64,000 nucleotides of DNA. Source: Hufsiella arboris (lineage in GTDB: Bacteria; Bacteroidota; Bacteroidia; Sphingobacteriales; Sphingobacteriaceae). This document shows positions 8,036-27,280 of the stretch, piece after piece (the stretch's first letter is position 1; each line of letters starts with the position of its first letter). A program made the position numbers and the translations under genes. The stretch lies in NCBI RefSeq assembly GCF_009834875.1, contig NZ_WVHT01000003.1, forward strand, positions 248,001-312,000, given 5' to 3'. The notes under the pieces are model-generated. The model searched no databases and was not told where the DNA came from. It saw nothing but the letters and a program-made list of their open reading frames with translations.

Positions 8036-9331
8036 CTACTTTGCTTTTAAACCAACTTTATATCCTGCTATTGCATAATATAAGATAAAAACATAACATG
8101 GAAGCATGCAAACTAAAAACGCAGTGTTGTTCGCAATACCGAGATGATCCTTTAAGTTAGCGTAAATGAGCGGAACGATCGCGCCACCAGCTATACCCAT
8201 TACCAGCAATGCCGAACCTGTTTTGGTAAGTTTACCCAAGCCGTGAATTCCAAGCGGAAAAATAGCGGGCCACATCGGCGCATTTGCCAACCCTAATAGT
8301 GCAATACATACCACAGATGTATAACCGTTAGTCAGATAAGCCAATACAGACAAAATTATTCCAAGTATCGCCGCATACTTTAAACTGGCCTGCTGGCTAA
8401 TATATTTTGGAATTGTTGCTATACCGATAATATAACCGGCAAGCATAGCGATTAGCGTGAACGAAGTGAAATACCGCGTTTTGTCGATGCTCATTCCCAA
8501 AGCCTTGCCATATGTTCCGATCACATCACCAGCCATTACTTCCACTCCTACGTAAAAAAACAAACATAGAGCTCCGAGCAATAAGTAAGGATATTGAAAA
8601 ACATTCGTTCGCTGGCCAGCCATTTCAGCTGCATCATCACTTTCTTTGGCTTCAATTTCGGGCAGAGATGACCGTTTTATTAAGAATGCCAAGACTATCA
8701 AAACCAGCGCCATGACGGCGTATGGCACAATTACTTTAGAAGCGAGATCATTTAACAATACTTCTCTTGCTGACGGGTCTGTAACAGAAGTTAATTTTCC
8801 TTCAACCTCATGTGCGCTATTCAAAACAATGGCGCCTAAAATAACCGGACTTAAAGCTCCGGCAATTTTGTTGCAGATACCCATAATACTAATTCTCCGG
8901 GCAGCACTTTCAATCGGGCCTAAAATACTGGCATATGGATTTGAGGCCGTTTGCAACAAAGAAAGACCAGTACCCTGGATAAACAGTCCCGTTAAGAAAA
9001 ATCCGAAGGTGCGGGTGTTAGCAGCGGGAATAAATATCAAGGAACCAATGGCCATGATGAGTAAACCTAAAGCCATTCCGTTTTTATAACCAGTTTTTTT
9101 CAATATATACGACGAAGGCAGTGCCAAAAAGAAATACGCCATATAAAACGCAAACGTAACAAACAGCGCCTGCACATCGCTTTTTAAGTCGCAGGCGATT
9201 TTTAAAAATGGAATTAACGTTCCGTTTAACCATGTTACAAAACCAAAAATGAAGAAAAGTGCACAAATGATTAAAAGTGGCTTTGAATCACTCTTCGTTT
9301 TAACCGGTGCCGGCGAAATAACAGTTTCCAT
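8036..9331 (-). CDS. FucP/NagP-type sugar:H+ symporter (MFS), probable GlcNAc permease
   Basis: A 431-aa 12-helix MFS protein of the fucose/glucose/galactose permease (FHS) family. The family pattern is visible in FFIFGFVTWLNGTLIPFLK (helix 1), LFIQGTGLSLLQTASNPY (helix 4) and LGLANAPMWPAIFPLGIHGLG. NagP of chitin-degrading marine bacteria belongs to this family. The gene is the last of an operon with a GlcNAc-kinase-like gene (9-bp gap) and nagB-LmbE, so GlcNAc or a related amino sugar is the likely substrate. The substrate is inferred from context and not from binding residues. Confidence 0.85.
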   Translation of the reverse strand: METVISPAPVKTKSDSKPLLIICALFFIFGFVTWLNGTLIPFLKIACDLKSDVQALFVTFAFYMAYFFLALPSSYILKKTGYKNGMALGLLIMAIGSLIFIPAANTRTFGFFLTGLFIQGTGLSLLQTASNPYASILGPIESAARRISIMGICNKIAGALSPVILGAIVLNSAHEVEGKLTSVTDPSAREVLLNDLASKVIVPYAVMALVLIVLAFLIKRSSLPEIEAKESDDAAEMAGQRTNVFQYPYLLLGALCLFFYVGVEVMAGDVIGTYGKALGMSIDKTRYFTSFTLIAMLAGYIIGIATIPKYISQQASLKYAAILGIILSVLAYLTNGYTSVVCIALLGLANAPMWPAIFPLGIHGLGKLTKTGSALLVMGIAGGAIVPLIYANLKDHLGIANNTAFLVCMLPCYVFILYYAIAGYKVGLKAK

Positions 9332-9340
9332 ACGCTAATT

Positions 9341-10192
9341 TTATTTGCTTAGATTTTTCAGATGATATTCGACCAGTCCATCCATAGGCGATGAGACAAT
9401 TACCCCTGTTTGCATTCCGAAAGATTGGGCCGTTTCTGATAAAATTTCGCGGAATGAATAACCTACAGAACCAATGCAATTGAACGAATAGCTTTTATAG
9501 GAAGGGTAAACCGAAACCAGCTGTTCGAAAAACTGGATGAACGATTCCTTTATTAGGTTTTGACAATAGGATTCATGGATATTTTCGCCTGCAAACCTTG
9601 TGAATGAAGCCGCGTAACGATTGGCAAATGGTTCAGTATACACATGATCCATAATTTCAGATTCCGTCAACTGGTACTTTTCGTGAAATGCGGTCAAAAG
9701 GTTGTTTGGCATAGCGCCACGCAAATAATCCTTGAGAATTTTCAATCCAATGTGACAACCACTACCCTCGTCGCCAATGATATATCCGCAGGAATCAACA
9801 TGGTGTATAATCTGGTCACCATCATATAAACAGGTATTTGTCCCGGTTCCAAGTATCGCGGCGAATCCAGGTTCATTTCCTAAAAGAGCTCTTGCTGCCG
9901 CCAGCAAATCATGATCGATATTAACTTTACACCTATTAAATATCCTTTTGAACGCGCTTTCAACGATACCTGCTTTTTGTGCGTTGTGTACGCCTGCACC
10001 ATAAAAAGCAATCTCCAGAACAGCATCAGGATCCAGATCATCTGGTAAAGCTTGCTTCAATGAGTTCGTTATGTACTCACTGCTCGCATAATACGGATTG
10101 TACCCTTCTGTATAAAATTGTTTGGTCAACGATCCGTCTTGAATTAATGTCCAGCTGGTTTTTGTCGAGCCGCCATCTGCGATTAAAATCAT
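9341..10192 (-). CDS. BadF/BadG-family kinase, probable N-acetylglucosamine kinase
   Basis: A 283-aa ASKHA-fold kinase. The phosphate-1 motif is ADGGSTKTSWTLI (about 4-16), phosphate-2 is AAILGTGTNTCLYDGD (about 110-125), and the glycine-rich GYIIGDEGSGCHIGLKIL follows. It resembles the eukaryotic-type GlcNAc kinases that Bacteroidota use for free GlcNAc. It lies between the permease gene (9 bp) and nagB-LmbE (82 bp) on one strand, so GlcNAc import, phosphorylation and deamination are grouped. A paralogue with the same motifs lies at 26420-27280. Confidence 0.85.
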   Translation of the reverse strand: MILIADGGSTKTSWTLIQDGSLTKQFYTEGYNPYYASSEYITNSLKQALPDDLDPDAVLEIAFYGAGVHNAQKAGIVESAFKRIFNRCKVNIDHDLLAAARALLGNEPGFAAILGTGTNTCLYDGDQIIHHVDSCGYIIGDEGSGCHIGLKILKDYLRGAMPNNLLTAFHEKYQLTESEIMDHVYTEPFANRYAASFTRFAGENIHESYCQNLIKESFIQFFEQLVSVYPSYKSYSFNCIGSVGYSFREILSETAQSFGMQTGVIVSSPMDGLVEYHLKNLSK

Positions 10193-10274
10193 GGTAATAT
10201 CTTTTTAATTTGAGCATAGCTATCCTGTAACAGGCCGAAAACCTGCATAGAATTATATAGTCAATGTTGTTTAA

Positions 10275-12191
10275 TTAAAACTTGTATCGAACGAACGCTT
10301 CCATCGCTTCGTAATTAGCTAAGCCAAGCTGGTCGTAAATTCTTGCTGTTTCACGATTGCGATCCTCGGCTCTTACCCAAAACTCACGGGCGTCATCGCC
10401 AGGAAAAACAGGTGTATCTTTTTGCGACTGGTGCTTATAAATGGCATTACGCTTCCTTATAACCTCCTGCGGAGATAGCGGAACTGCCATTTCAATTTCG
10501 TAAGCCTCAAATTCGTGCCATGCGCCACGGTACATCCATAACCAGCAATCCTTTACCCAAGCTTCGTCTTTTAATTGATCGAGAGCTGCCAGAATAATAT
10601 TGAAGCAAACGATGTGCGTACCATGCGGGTCCGCAAAATCACCGGCCGCGAAAATTTGCTGCGGCTGTACTTTTTGAAGTAAGGTCTTGGTAAGATCTAT
10701 ATCCTCCTGGGTAACAGAATTCTTTTGTGTTTTACCAGTTTCGTAAAAAGGAAGCTCCATAAAATGGATGTGATCATCAGTTAAACCGGCGTATCTTGCA
10801 CCGCTTATAGCTTCCGTTTTACGTATATAACCTTTAACCAGCCTGACTTCTTTTGTATCAATCTGATTAGGCTGTTTTTCCTTAAAGAAATTACGCATGT
10901 CTTTGTAAACAGCAGTTAGTTTGCTGTTATCCTCGCCCATGCTTTGATTAAAGTCTATAGCAAATTCAACATAACGCAAAACATCGTCATCCCAAACAGC
11001 GGTGTTTCCTGAAGTTTGATAGGCCACATGAACGTCATGTCCTTGATCAACTAAGCGAATAAATGTACCGCCCATTGAAATAACATCGTCATCCGGGTGT
11101 GGCGAGAATACTATGGCTCGCTTTTTTGCAGGTAAGGCGCGCTCGGGACGCTCTGAATCATCTGCATTGGGTTTTCCTCCCGGCCAGCCGGTTATGGTAT
11201 GCTGGAGTTTGTTAAAAATATCAATATTAATGGTGTAGGCCGATCCTTTTTCGACCACCAGCTGCGCCATACCATTGTTATTGTAATCTTCATCGGTAAG
11301 TTTCAGAACGGGTTTATCCAGAGTTTTTGATAACCAGATAACCGCCTTTTTTGTCAACGGTAAATCCCATACACAGTCCTTGACAAGCCAAGGAGTATCA
11401 AAACGAGTCAAATCGGACGCTGCGTCCTGATCAAGAACAAACTCAACGTGCTCCGAAAGCTGAAGATAGGTTGCAGGAACATCTCCTGATATTTCTCCCT
11501 CAACAGCCTTTTTGATGATCGGCGCCTTCTTTTTATTCCAGGCCATCAGAATAATTTCACGTGCCTTGAAAATTGTTCCGATGCCCATCGTGATTGCTTT
11601 GGTAGGTACGTTTTCCTTGCCGCCAAAATCGCGGGAAGCATCGCGCCTTGTCAAATCATCCAATGTTACCAAACGTGTTCCTGAATTAGGAGCGGAACCA
11701 GGTTCGTTGAAACCAATGTGGCCCGTACGTCCAATTCCCAATATTTGCAGATCAAGGCCACCGAGTTCTGTTATTTTACGTTCGTAATCAAGACAAAAGC
11801 TGGCAATGTCATCCATAGCCAGTGTGCCATCAGGTATGTGGATATTTTGTTTTTCAATATCGATATGATTGAAAAGATTTTCATTCATGAAGGTTACATA
11901 ACTCTGCATGGCATCCGGTTTCATCGGATAATATTCATCCAGGTTAAAAGTAACGACGTTCTTAAAGCTTAATCCTTCTTCTTTATGTAAACGAACCAGC
12001 TCCTTGTACACTGCAATGGGTGTAACACCGGTTGCCAGACCTAAAACTGCAGTTTCACCTTTTTGATGCTTAGTCCTGATTAAGTGTGCAATCCGTGCTG
12101 CAACAGTTACTGAAGCAATTTGCTGATTAGGATAAACGCTTACGGGAAGTTTTTCAAAACGCGTTTCTTCAAGAAGATTCAATCTCGCCAT
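10275..12191 (-). CDS. nagB: Fused glucosamine-6-phosphate deaminase / LmbE (PIG-L) deacetylase-like protein
   Basis: A 638-aa two-domain protein. Residues 1-about 270 are NagB-like: the sugar-phosphate loop GLATGVTPIAVYKEL (51-65), NLDEYYPM (83-90) with the general-base Asp, and GIGRTGHIGFNEPGS (152-166) with the ring-opening His. Where E. coli NagB has Asp141 (GNDGH), this protein has Thr. Residues about 355-560 form an LmbE/PIG-L domain: the zinc motif SPHPDDDVISMGG (363-375) and a later DPHGTH. LmbE enzymes de-N-acetylate GlcNAc derivatives, so the C-terminus may replace the missing NagA (inference). The fusion type occurs in other Bacteroidota. It heads the operon; a secreted GH20 is divergent. 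Confidence 0.9.
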   Translation of the reverse strand: MARLNLLEETRFEKLPVSVYPNQQIASVTVAARIAHLIRTKHQKGETAVLGLATGVTPIAVYKELVRLHKEEGLSFKNVVTFNLDEYYPMKPDAMQSYVTFMNENLFNHIDIEKQNIHIPDGTLAMDDIASFCLDYERKITELGGLDLQILGIGRTGHIGFNEPGSAPNSGTRLVTLDDLTRRDASRDFGGKENVPTKAITMGIGTIFKAREIILMAWNKKKAPIIKKAVEGEISGDVPATYLQLSEHVEFVLDQDAASDLTRFDTPWLVKDCVWDLPLTKKAVIWLSKTLDKPVLKLTDEDYNNNGMAQLVVEKGSAYTINIDIFNKLQHTITGWPGGKPNADDSERPERALPAKKRAIVFSPHPDDDVISMGGTFIRLVDQGHDVHVAYQTSGNTAVWDDDVLRYVEFAIDFNQSMGEDNSKLTAVYKDMRNFFKEKQPNQIDTKEVRLVKGYIRKTEAISGARYAGLTDDHIHFMELPFYETGKTQKNSVTQEDIDLTKTLLQKVQPQQIFAAGDFADPHGTHIVCFNIILAALDQLKDEAWVKDCWLWMYRGAWHEFEAYEIEMAVPLSPQEVIRKRNAIYKHQSQKDTPVFPGDDAREFWVRAEDRNRETARIYDQLGLANYEAMEAFVRYKF

Positions 12192-12441: not shown

Positions 12442-14997
12442 ATGATTTTAATCCATTTAAAAAATATCTCCACATACCTTACTGTAGGTTTGATCATACT
12501 TTTATCGACGGTTTCTAAGTCACAAACAAAAAGCTTTAATCCGGCTGATTTGAATTTGACTTGGAAAATCCTTGAAAACAATCACCAGGGAAAAGGGAAA
12601 AATTTGACCGAGCTGAACATAAAAAATACCGGATCTTTACCTTTAAGAAGCGATTGGAAAATATACTTTAATTACGCCAGGCAAATAACCGAACACACGT
12701 TTCCATCTGGAATTTCAGTCAAACATGTTAATGGTGATTTATTCTACCTATTTCCTGACAAAACATTTAAAGTTCTCAAATCGAAGGAAAGTATTAATTT
12801 AGACTTGGTTGCATCCGATTGGGTTGTTAACTACACAGATGCACCCAGTGGTTTCTTTTTGGTGTGGGATGCTGACCCCGAACGAGGATATGCCCTTAAA
12901 GAGCCGACGCTAATTAAATCTGACTCACCGAAACAATACCTGCGTACCGCAGATGATAAACTGCATTTAAAAACACCTCAGGACCTTTATGAAGAAAATA
13001 AGGGCAACATCGATATTCCCATTGATAAAATTATTCCTGTATTTCCAACTCCCCTATCCTATAAAATTAACGATCAGTCCTTCACTTTAAGCCAAACCGG
13101 CTCTATAAATTATAATGAGCGCTTTGCAAATGAGGCGGCTTTTCTAAACGACTATCTGGAAAGCTATCTTGGAAAAAAGCTGGATACACAAAAGAAAACA
13201 TCGGGGCGGATCAGTCTTGTACATAAAGATGGAATGAAAGATGAAGCATACGAGATTGAAATAACTAACACTGAAATAGCAATCGTAGCTTCTTCTAATT
13301 CTGGCATTTTTTATGGAATTCAGTCGCTAAAAACGATGCTTCCGGCGAAGCCGCAAAATGTAGTGAAAATCAAAGGCGCAATCATTAATGATGAGCCAAG
13401 ATTTGCATATCGTGGCTTTATGATGGAGGTTGCAAGGAATTTCCAACCGAAAAACGAAGTAAAACGTGTAATCGACCTGATGGCTCTTTATAAGTTAAAC
13501 ACCTTGCATTTTCATTTCAGCGATGATGAGGCCTGGCGACTGCAGATTCCATCGATACCTGAACTTACCGAAGTAGGCTCAAAGAGAAGTTTCAGCAAGG
13601 AAACGTTGCAGCCAACGTTAGGATCTGGCCCCAACGCCAATAGTTCCGGAAGCGGGTTTTACAGCAAAGCAGATTTTATTGAACTGTTAAAATATGCCGA
13701 TCAAAGGCATATTCGCGTAATACCCGAAATTGAATCGCCTGGACATGCAAGGGCGGCAATCAAATCAATGGATGTTCGCTATGAACGACTAATGAAGCAA
13801 GGAAAAAAGCAGGAAGCTGAAGAATACCTTCTCCGCGATCTTTCTGATAAATCGCAATACGTATCCGTACAAAACTGGAATGATAACGTGATCAACCCTG
13901 CAATGCCGTCAGTATACACATTTTTCGAAACTGTTATTGATGACATTGCTGCTATGTACCAGGATGCCGGCGTAAAGCTGGAAACAATTCATTTCGGCGG
14001 CGATGAGGTACCGGCGGGCGTTTGGGAAAAATCCCCTGCAATAGAATCATTTATCAAATCTAATCCCGGACTAGCATCGGTAAACGACGTATGGCCATAC
14101 TATTACACCAAAATCAATGATATTTTAAGAAAACGAAACCTGTATTTATCAGCCTGGGAGGAAGCTGGTTTGCGAAAAACCGTAGTAGACGGAACACGTA
14201 AGGAAATAGTTAATGAAGAGCTGGCGAAACAGAATGCTCATCTGTATGCTTGGAATAATCAGATTGGCTGGGGAAATGAAGACCTTCCTTACCGACTTGC
14301 CAACGTGGGTTATAAAACGATTTTAACCTGCGTAAGTAACATGTATTTTGATATGGCTTACTATAAAGATTTCTACGAGCCGGGGTATTATTGGGGAACC
14401 TATGCTGATTTGGATAAACCCTTCAGCTTTATTCCATACAACTACTATAAAAATACGGTTCTTGACAGAATGGGAAATCCGGTTGGCAATTCACTTGACA
14501 AAAAAGAACGCTTAACACCGGAAGGACAAAGGAACATCGCAGGTTTGCAGTGCGCGATATTTGGTGAAACAGTCAAAACAACTGCGCAACTGGAATATCT
14601 CTTGCTGCCAAGATTACTAGGATTTTCCGAACGTGCATGGAGCGCAGATCCCGAATGGGCTGCCGAAACAGATCCTGCGAAAAGCAACGTACTTTACAAA
14701 CGCGATTGGCAGCGTTTTGTAAACACAGTCGGAAAAAGAGAGCTTCCGCGATTAGACTATTACAATGGCGGATATTGCTACCGGATTCCATTACCGGGTG
14801 CTAAAATCGACAACGGGAAAGTTGTCGCTAACATGCAGATTCCGGGACTAACTATCCGTTATACAACAAACGGTACAATACCTACGTCTTCAGATAAAAT
14901 TTATACCGGCCCAATTTCTGCCAAGACAACCATTAAGTTAAGGGCTTTTACAACGACGGGCAGGGGCAGCCGTACAACTACTATAATTAACAAATAG
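12442..14997 (+). CDS. Secreted GH20 beta-N-acetylhexosaminidase (chitobiase type)
   Basis: Cleaves terminal GlcNAc/GalNAc from chitooligosaccharides or glycans by substrate-assisted catalysis. The 851 aa protein has a signal peptide (about 1-28, ends VSKSQ) and an N-terminal CHB/HEX carbohydrate-binding domain (about 35-175; LNLTWKILENN, FFLVWDADPERGY). A GH20b alpha/beta domain (about 190-310) precedes the TIM barrel (about 320-760) with PRFAYRGFMMEVARNFQPK, HFHFSDDEAWRLQIP and the catalytic pair D521-E522 in HFGGDEVPAGVW. A C-terminal chitobiase domain has TIRYTTNGTIPTSS. It is divergent from the nag operon, consistent with joint use in GlcNAc release and uptake. Confidence 0.95.
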   Translation: MILIHLKNISTYLTVGLIILLSTVSKSQTKSFNPADLNLTWKILENNHQGKGKNLTELNIKNTGSLPLRSDWKIYFNYARQITEHTFPSGISVKHVNGDLFYLFPDKTFKVLKSKESINLDLVASDWVVNYTDAPSGFFLVWDADPERGYALKEPTLIKSDSPKQYLRTADDKLHLKTPQDLYEENKGNIDIPIDKIIPVFPTPLSYKINDQSFTLSQTGSINYNERFANEAAFLNDYLESYLGKKLDTQKKTSGRISLVHKDGMKDEAYEIEITNTEIAIVASSNSGIFYGIQSLKTMLPAKPQNVVKIKGAIINDEPRFAYRGFMMEVARNFQPKNEVKRVIDLMALYKLNTLHFHFSDDEAWRLQIPSIPELTEVGSKRSFSKETLQPTLGSGPNANSSGSGFYSKADFIELLKYADQRHIRVIPEIESPGHARAAIKSMDVRYERLMKQGKKQEAEEYLLRDLSDKSQYVSVQNWNDNVINPAMPSVYTFFETVIDDIAAMYQDAGVKLETIHFGGDEVPAGVWEKSPAIESFIKSNPGLASVNDVWPYYYTKINDILRKRNLYLSAWEEAGLRKTVVDGTRKEIVNEELAKQNAHLYAWNNQIGWGNEDLPYRLANVGYKTILTCVSNMYFDMAYYKDFYEPGYYWGTYADLDKPFSFIPYNYYKNTVLDRMGNPVGNSLDKKERLTPEGQRNIAGLQCAIFGETVKTTAQLEYLLLPRLLGFSERAWSADPEWAAETDPAKSNVLYKRDWQRFVNTVGKRELPRLDYYNGGYCYRIPLPGAKIDNGKVVANMQIPGLTIRYTTNGTIPTSSDKIYTGPISAKTTIKLRAFTTTGRGSRTTTIINK

Positions 14998-26133: not shown

Positions 26134-26427
26134 ATGACATCTGCCAAAACAGCCTCAATAAAGAAGTGGATCAGATTTATGGGATTTAAGCTTGCCAAGT
26201 CGCATCGTATCCTTAAAAAATCGACCAAAATAAATTATTACACGTTAGGAAACTTCGGTGTTTACGAAGAATTACCCCTGCAAAACGGGAGAGTAGATCA
26301 TGACAAACCACATAAATTTATAACGTGGAATCCCTGGGGTGTCGATGTTGAAATCAATTCGGTAAGAGACCTTAGTGAGGCTTACCAGGATTCTGTTGCT
26401 TACAATCCGGAACTGTCCGTTATTTAA
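26134..26427 (+). CDS. Small hypothetical protein
   Basis: A 97-aa protein I do not recognise. The N-terminal third is basic (KTASIKKWIRFMGFKLAKSH, then RILKKSTK), followed by TINYYTLGNFGVYEELPL-like sequence, an acidic/His segment and WNPWGVDVEINSVRD. No signal peptide or membrane segment. It is divergent from otsAB across a 127-bp AT-rich gap and overlaps the end of the opposite BadF-type kinase gene by 8 bp. Codon use looks normal for the window, so the gene is probably real, but no role can be assigned. Confidence 0.55.
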   Translation: MTSAKTASIKKWIRFMGFKLAKSHRILKKSTKINYYTLGNFGVYEELPLQNGRVDHDKPHKFITWNPWGVDVEINSVRDLSEAYQDSVAYNPELSVI

Positions 26428-27280
26428 CGTCGAATTTTATTTCCTTGAGTATATAGCTGTTTAATTCGTGGATGGGTTTTTGTAAAATTTTACCTACCTG
26501 AATATCCTTTTTTCTGCATATCTCTCTTAGTATATCCTGAAAATGGAAGGCTATAGAGCCCACAAAATGACAAACAAATTCTTTATAGCTCGAATAAGAA
26601 AGAATATGGGATTCAACAAAATCTGTCAACGCTTTTTTTAACAGCTTTATGATGTATGGGTGATCAATATTCGGTGTCAGAAACTTTGCAAATGACGCCA
26701 GGTAAAGATTAGCAGATGGCTTTTGATAGACATTGTGAATTGCCGTCTCTTTAGTTACTTTATATTCTTTTTCAAAAGCTTTTGAAAGATCGGCTGGCAT
26801 GCGGCATTGCAAATAGTCGGTAACGAGTATTTTTCCAAGATATGTGCCGGAGCCTTCATCACCCAAAATGTAACCAAGGCCGTGTAGCCCTTGCTCAACA
26901 GTTTTCCCATTGAAAAAAGATATGTTTGATCCGGTTCCCAAAACACATGTAAACCCTTTATACGTTCCGCAGGTTGCATAGGCCGAACCGATTATGTCGC
27001 TATCGACGCTTATAAATGCGTTTTTCAACACTAATGATATGCCATTTGAAACGATTTCCCGCTTATCGGGATTAGAACAACCCGCGCCAAAGAAATAAAC
27101 TTCAGTGATTTGGTCTATATAAGGCTGCAAGTCTTTACTCGCAAGCAGTGTTTTTGAAATTTCCTTTTCTGTTTTAAAGTAAGGATTTAAACCATCGGTT
27201 GTAAACTCGACAGGAGCTGATTTTGGGATAGTCAGGATCCAATCCGTTTTTGAAGAACCGCTGTCGGCAACTAAAATCAT
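26420..27280 (-). CDS. Second BadF/BadG-family kinase (GlcNAc-kinase-like)
   Basis: A 286-aa ASKHA kinase with the same motifs as the kinase of the nag operon: MILVADSGSSKTDWILT (1-17), CVLGTGSNISFFNG, GLGYILGDEGSGTYLGKIL and the C-terminal HFVGSIAFHFQDILRE. It is clearly diverged from that paralogue. It starts 4 bp after a receiver-protein gene on the same strand, so the two are probably co-transcribed. Its substrate could be GlcNAc, glucosamine or another sugar; the family also contains acyl-CoA-dehydratase activators, but this length favours a sugar kinase. Confidence 0.8.
   Translation of the reverse strand: MILVADSGSSKTDWILTIPKSAPVEFTTDGLNPYFKTEKEISKTLLASKDLQPYIDQITEVYFFGAGCSNPDKREIVSNGISLVLKNAFISVDSDIIGSAYATCGTYKGFTCVLGTGSNISFFNGKTVEQGLHGLGYILGDEGSGTYLGKILVTDYLQCRMPADLSKAFEKEYKVTKETAIHNVYQKPSANLYLASFAKFLTPNIDHPYIIKLLKKALTDFVESHILSYSSYKEFVCHFVGSIAFHFQDILREICRKKDIQVGKILQKPIHELNSYILKEIKFDVK

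Follow-up and report, generated by a model that had tools for sequence, protein, structure and literature searches.

A NagB/PIG-L fusion protein common in Bacteroidota as a candidate bifunctional GlcNAc-6-phosphate deacetylase/glucosamine-6-phosphate deaminase

Closest described enzymes and pathways

An important source of carbon for Bacteroidota, the phylum of Echinicola vietnamensis, is the N-acetylglucosamine (GlcNAc) contained in chitin, mucin and cell walls. Among five bacteria examined for the use of glucosamine through NagX, four involve NagA (panels A–D), the fifth (panel E) being E. vietnamensis (Price 2022, PMC9007349). In another study, deletion of the nagB gene of the chitin locus of F. 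johnsoniae had no effect on growth on chitin and the NagB protein could not be expressed; this bacterium carries three further nagB-like genes and a predicted NagA, Fjoh_3974 (Larsbrink 2016, PMC5127042). These F. johnsoniae data weigh against the function proposed below, although the text consulted does not specify whether the deleted nagB encodes a fusion. The available text of PMC5583593 names non-orthologous replacements for NagB and for NagK, and none was seen there for NagA.

The association of a NagB domain with a PIG-L (LmbE) domain is already named, on the basis of its profile, as the family NF002557/PRK02122 ('glucosamine-6-phosphate deaminase-like protein'). The full-length architecture of this family is identical to that of the fusion described here, but the family name gives the C-terminal domain no function. 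The N-terminal domain of the fusion resembles monomeric NagB (2bkv/2bkx), which stands alone, without a deacetylase domain. The C-terminal domain has its fold and its HxDD + H metal site in common with BshB, BcZBP (BC1534), diacetylchitobiose deacetylase and MshB. The fusion nevertheless differs from these LmbE/PIG-L enzymes by its low identity (16–21% over the fold), its association with NagB, a Thr where the motif has Asp and extra conserved basic residues. In the accessible part of the 2014 LmbE review (PMC4101496), no GlcNAc-6-phosphate (GlcNAc-6-P) substrate is named and the word 'phosphate' was not found in the main text. No proposal of a deacetylase role for the NagB/PIG-L fusion was found in the literature searched, most subscription journals lying outside its scope.

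For this common but little-studied bacterial enzyme, what is proposed as new here is a role for the C-terminal domain. Judged from sequence comparisons, the PIG-L domain would deacetylate GlcNAc-6-P (probability of about 0.68), which would make the fusion a bifunctional GlcNAc-6-P deacetylase/glucosamine-6-phosphate (GlcN-6-P) deaminase and a non-orthologous substitute for NagA.

The fusion gene and its neighbours in Hufsiella arboris

The window, i.e. the whole stretch of 64,000 nucleotides analysed, carries the fusion gene at 10275..12191 on the minus strand (ORF 12191..10275, start codon ATG, product of 638 aa). The product matches the NF002557/PRK02122 profile over positions 19–652 of 653, with 1066.4 bits for an NCBIfam cut-off of 384. 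Pfam domains are Glucosamine_iso (PF01182, residues 27–244) and PIG-L (PF02585, residues 360–536; 60.5 bits, cut-off 28.2), and the score with the NCBIfam nagB model TIGR00502 (249.9 bits) exceeds its cut-off (236.9). The searches of Pfam and of NCBIfam (at E 0.001) detected no match to the NagA models TIGR00221 and PF01979, the only domains found being PF01182 and PF02585. A bacillithiol (BshB1) role for the PIG-L domain was considered and rejected: the fusion scores only 20.8 bits with TIGR04001 (cut-off 182.5) and the genome encodes a separate BshB1 (295.9 bits).

All parts of the protein are encoded on the minus strand. The NagB-type deaminase domain covers residues about 14–264 (11400..12152), as indicated by PF01182 and by the alignment of the predicted model to 2bkv, a monomeric NagB of the B. 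subtilis type. It is followed by an inter-domain segment (residues 265–354; 11130..11399) that contains the partly conserved stretch HTITGWPGGKP, and then by the PIG-L/LmbE de-N-acetylase domain (residues 355–638; 10278..11129), recognized by PF02585 and by the alignment of the model to BshB 6ull. The sequence SPHPDDD (363–369) includes the metal/base motif H365-P-D367-D368 (11088..11099) and DPHGTH (521–526) includes the second metal motif H523-G-T525-H526 (10614..10625), both being defined by conservation among 92 distinct fusions. A conserved loop of low model confidence and the following helix (residues 589–611, with Q590, K591, R602, R607 and R611; 10359..10427) may constitute a substrate lid and a clamp for the 6-phosphate.

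The fusion gene is followed on the same strand, after a gap of 82 bp, by a gene encoding a BadF-type N-acetylglucosamine kinase-like protein (283 aa; 9341–10192, minus strand) and, after a gap of 9 bp, by a gene encoding a NagP/GluP/FucP-type MFS permease (431 aa; 8036–9331, minus strand). Both matches of the kinase are weak (NagK_SO3507, 27.9 bits for a cut-off of 370; PF01869, 19.5 bits for a cut-off of 31.5), and the permease scores 415.6 bits with NagP_SO3503 (cut-off 625) and 321.7 bits with gluP (cut-off 202.55). A divergent gene, 250 bp upstream from the fusion, encodes a GH20 beta-N-acetylhexosaminidase (851 aa; 12442..14997, plus strand; PF00728, 289.4 bits). The original prediction described the kinase, the NagP-like permease and the fusion as one operon devoid of an amidohydrolase-type NagA, and this holds, since none of the 12 amidohydrolase matches of the genome lies on the contig of the window.

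The order kinase–permease–fusion is not conserved. Within four ORFs of the fusion, nagK was found at 0, nagP at 10 and GH20 at 16 of 80 named loci, in a scan at E 1e-10 that misses distant kinases and in which some loci end at contig ends. The window encodes a second BadF-type NagK-like kinase (26420–27280, minus strand) that shares 36% identity with the operon kinase; the latter has four matches in the Hufsiella arboris genome, itself included.

A canonical nagA outside the operon

The amidohydrolase search covered the whole assembly (4.8 Mb, 99.97% complete). One of its 12 matches, located on another contig, is a canonical nagA (379 aa; TIGR00221, 336.9 bits for a cut-off of 225.65). The lack of NagA that had been implied for the organism is therefore contradicted, and 'no nagA' is valid for the operon only. 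This gene sits between tsf and pyrH (G000:C1, about 799–803 kb; loci L003 and L215), the names tsf, pyrH and frr having been assigned by reading of the sequences. Such a position, outside the nag operon, suggests that nagA may be expressed independently of the latter. The gene is present in all eight sampled genomes of the family and adjoins tsf and pyrH in seven of them, the exception being G002. The tsf/pyrH neighbourhood is an odd place for a catabolic nagA.

The genome thus encodes both the fusion and an amidohydrolase-type NagA (TIGR00221), whose reaction is the one proposed for the PIG-L domain and whose models do not match the fusion. The fusion is the sole PF01182-type NagB of the genome; the other PF01182 match was rejected as a second NagB, as it is a 6-phosphogluconolactonase (205 bits with TIGR01198).

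The presence of a canonical nagA in this genome and in the sampled members of its family, as well as the status of the fusion as the only NagB, would be expected if NagA deacetylates GlcNAc-6-P here and the PIG-L domain has become a relic or uses a different metabolite, perhaps in a reaction other than deacetylation, the fusion mattering only as a NagB. However, the window copy retains the metal ligands, the base D367 and H523, its close orthologs occur in Pontibacter genomes that lack nagA, and bacillithiol synthesis is already covered by the separate BshB1. This role of NagA as the sole deacetylase is thus regarded as quite unlikely. If the PIG-L domain does deacetylate GlcNAc-6-P, as preferred here, this step is probably redundant in Hufsiella arboris, because the organism and its family retain the canonical nagA beside tsf and pyrH. 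A relative devoid of nagA would be a better test case than Hufsiella arboris.

Distribution of the fusion and of NagA

Among 296 genomes drawn across the phylum Bacteroidota (completeness of at least 95% requested), 125 carry a fusion scoring over the NF002557 cut-off, so that the association of the two domains is not due to chance, and 45 carry a nagA over the TIGR00221 cut-off. The 125 fusion genomes include 25 with a nagA over the cut-off, six with a weaker NagA-like gene and 94 with nothing NagA-like; 20 genomes have nagA without the fusion. No NagA-like gene was found in any sampled fusion genome in 21 of the 27 fusion-bearing families, nor in any tabulated genome of the family in 20 of them.

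A clear single-domain NagB without any fusion was found in 27 genomes (17 with nagA and one with a weak match), this status being judged by match strength rather than by a domain scan. The frequency of nagA in these genomes (17/27) differs from that in the fusion genomes (25/125; Fisher p 2e-5, uncorrected for kinship). When the 14 genomes with weaker NagB matches are added, nagA is found in 19/41 plus two weak matches (Fisher p 0.002, also uncorrected for kinship). The NagA protein of the window organism was also used directly as the query against 30 selected fusion genomes devoid of nagA (20 from the group of 94 and 10 Pontibacter): 17 of them yielded no match and the other 13 short ones only (39–65 residues, at most 25.3 bits).

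Two genomes are true counterexamples: in G067, nagA directly adjoins the fusion gene on the same strand, and in G244 the two genes lie about 5 kb from each other. Four others (G161, G170, G248 and G292) have both genes and were rejected as examples of a fusion beside nagA, since the neighbours of their divergent NagA are single-domain NagBs of 247–268 aa, apart from the fusion. At loci L229, L230, L232 and L233, a divergent NagA class (27–28% identity to the NagA of the window organism) is paired with single-domain NagBs.

Closer to the window, 80 loci from named genomes harbour relatives sharing 78–84% identity with its fusion. The presence of nagA was tested in 30 of these genomes, whose completeness is not stated: it was found in 20, and those that lack it are the 10 Pontibacter tested (out of 12 Pontibacter loci returned). 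The fusions of these 10 nagA-less Pontibacter are 78–82% identical to that of the window; therefore, a near-ortholog of the window protein exists where no NagA was found. Each of them encodes one NagK homolog (38–41% identity). Nine of the 10 have no Glucosamine_iso protein other than the fusion, whereas P. diazotrophicus has two fusions and a further protein of 261 aa. The literature search returned nothing useful about growth of Pontibacter on GlcNAc.

Gene context of the fusions and MurQ

For 80 fusion loci of 69 genomes, window included, the neighbours lying up to 7.5 kb away were grouped into clusters. They comprise SusC (17 loci), GntR/LacI-type regulators (15), GH20 (13), a sodium-solute symporter (9), AnmK, NagX-like and AmpG-like proteins (8 each), NagP (7), GHL10 and BadF kinase (6 each), and GH3 and MurQ (5 each); each name was taken from a single representative of the cluster, SusC/SusD were named by reading of the sequences and the representatives of the NagX, AmpG and GH3 clusters score below the NCBIfam cut-offs.

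In four genomes (G129, G133, G295 and G181), the genes for the fusion, an AmpG-like protein, GH3 and AnmK run together, and a DeoR-type regulator and MurQ are encoded divergently from the fusion. No nagA is present in G129, G133 and G295, and G181 encodes a weak NagA-like protein. G048 lacks nagA as well; there, MurQ and the kinase follow the fusion on the same strand. The product of MurQ is GlcNAc-6-P, and MurQ is encoded by 124 of the 125 fusion genomes. MurQ was considered as a proof of the need for a deacetylase, and rejected: its presence alone proves nothing, because 72 of the 218 MurQ genomes have neither the fusion nor nagA.

These 72 genomes, together with the absence of a NagA-like gene from 9 of the 27 single-NagB genomes (20 of 41 with the weak matches), are consistent with the idea that the nagA-less pattern reflects glucosamine use or another conversion of GlcNAc-6-P, no GlcNAc-6-P deacetylation taking place in the genomes concerned. 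Yet the proximity of GH20 to the fusion in 13 of the 80 clustered loci and in 16 of the 80 named loci argues against this idea, which would also leave a conserved fused deacetylase-type domain unexplained; it is considered very unlikely.

Predicted structure and active sites

The fusion was modelled from an alignment of 77 of the 92 distinct fusions, four over-long ORFs, three degenerate copies and eight near-duplicates being left out. The model has a mean pLDDT of 90.5 and a pTM of 0.83, with pLDDT below 50 at residues 592–599. Its NagB half superimposes on 2bkv (Z 37.5, rmsd 1.2, 242 residues, 43% identity) and its PIG-L half on BshB 6ull (Z 21.8, rmsd 2.5, 206 residues). The fold of the PIG-L half matches those of BshB, BcZBP and diacetylchitobiose deacetylases with Z 20.5–21.8. 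GalB, a hydratase of the PIG-L fold, matches it equally (Z 21.0, tied), so that the fold alone is no proof of deacetylation; this match is in line with an exclusive role of NagA in deacetylation and another role, or none, for the PIG-L domain.

The PIG-L half also matches diacetylchitobiose deacetylases individually, by sequence for 8bgn (E 7.7e-6, residues 354–431) and by structure for 3wl3 (Z 21.1). Like the archaeal enzymes, it might thus act ahead of phosphorylation and remove the acetyl group from free GlcNAc or from sugars of the chitobiose type, a GlcN kinase then supplying the NagB domain with GlcN-6-P, and the weak assignment of the BadF kinases to NagK would agree with this. However, murQ and anmK near the fusion provide a phosphorylated sugar and the fusion partner of the PIG-L domain uses a 6-phosphate. 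Furthermore, in an approximate alignment, the BshB1 of the same genome shares R457, K580, Q590 and R611 with the fusion but lacks the highly conserved K453, K490, K591, R602 and R607. Deacetylation of unphosphorylated sugars therefore appears unlikely.

The 110 fusion ORFs, many of which came from overlapping loci, were reduced to 92 distinct ones from 80 genomes; no fusion ORF was called at L123 (G029) and L209. In the NagB domain, D85, H158, E163 and K222, the counterparts of the catalytic D72, H143, E148 and K208 of E. coli NagB, are kept in 91, 91, 92 and 92 of the 92 fusions. The site of T156, which is that of Asp141 in E. coli NagB, is occupied in the fusions by T (62), N (19), S (10) or V (1). 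In the PIG-L site, H365 and D368 are found in all 92 fusions, H526 in 91, and D367 and H523 in 90. In the close set (79 relatives and the window), H365, D367, D368 and H526 are kept in 80/80, as are K453, R457, K580, K591, R602, R607 and R611.

Two positions of the second metal motif deviate from described enzymes. H523, the counterpart of MshB His144, is replaced by Asn in 26 of the 80 members of the close set (among loci L136–L212; 22 labelled Mucilaginibacter and four 'Bacteroidetes bacterium'), and is kept as His in all 10 Pontibacter and in the window. T525, at the site of MshB Asp146 (both mapped by the H-x-x-H motif), is invariant (92/92 distinct fusions, 80/80 in the close set); from motif mapping, the Asp that precedes the last metal His (MshB Asp146, BshB Asp112), also found in the BshB1 of the same genome, is thus replaced by Thr in the fusions. 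According to the part of the LmbE review that is accessible, mutants of MshB at His144 and Asp146 keep at most 1% activity (PMC4101496). The H523N change and T525 are therefore warnings, and both are in favour of NagA as the enzyme that deacetylates GlcNAc-6-P. In the relatives, H523N perhaps reflects a relaxed constraint where NagA is present. The only fusion of G145, a genome without nagA, carries Asn at this position.

Proposed function and its consequences

The following model can be drawn for the preferred reading. GlcNAc-6-P would originate from the NagP/NagK route, with GH20 acting upstream, and from MurNAc recycling via MurQ. The PIG-L domain, a putative metal-dependent de-N-acetylase with H365, D368 and H526 as ligands and D367 as general base, would convert GlcNAc-6-P to GlcN-6-P and acetate. 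The NagB domain would then convert GlcN-6-P to fructose-6-P and ammonia. In most fusion-bearing Bacteroidota, the PIG-L domain would thereby replace NagA. The original prediction already suggested GlcNAc-6-P deacetylation by the LmbE domain; the metal site, the 94 of 125 fusion genomes with nothing NagA-like, the orthologs of the nagA-less Pontibacter and the murQ/anmK clusters speak for this function, and the part that fell is the lack of NagA in this organism.

By a slight balance of likelihood, PIG-L-type proteins, fused to the next enzyme of the pathway, may form a second, unrelated class of GlcNAc-6-P deacetylases, by which a large part of Bacteroidota would chiefly break down GlcNAc-6-P. 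These enzymes would hold the phosphate by a dedicated clamp (K453, K490, K591, R602 and R607) and possibly transfer GlcN-6-P between their two domains. If GlcNAc-6-P is indeed the substrate, pathway tools that require NagA miss the deacetylation step in most fusion-bearing genomes, the second half of the 'deaminase-like' family NF002557/PRK02122 receives a function, and the LmbE superfamily acquires a substrate from central metabolism. The fusion would probably explain the use of GlcNAc without the textbook NagA in many Bacteroidota.

Divergent copies of the fusion

Some copies have lost residues of one of the two sites. In the paralogs L110 (G170, 8998–10953) and L112 (G107, 8998–10902), Ala replaces D367, and changes are also seen at R602, R607 and R611; an intact fusion is retained in each of the two genomes. 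This joint loss speaks for the proposed function. On the other side stands L108, in which R607 is changed and D367 is kept. Conversely, L098 (G229, 8874–10892), which lies on a long branch, shows D85Y and H158N in its NagB domain and keeps the PIG-L metal site. This separate decay of the NagB or the PIG-L site fits the presence of two distinct catalytic sites in the predicted protein. L112, beside which a SusC/SusD-like pair and stand-alone PIG-L proteins are encoded, possibly belongs to a system with a different substrate.
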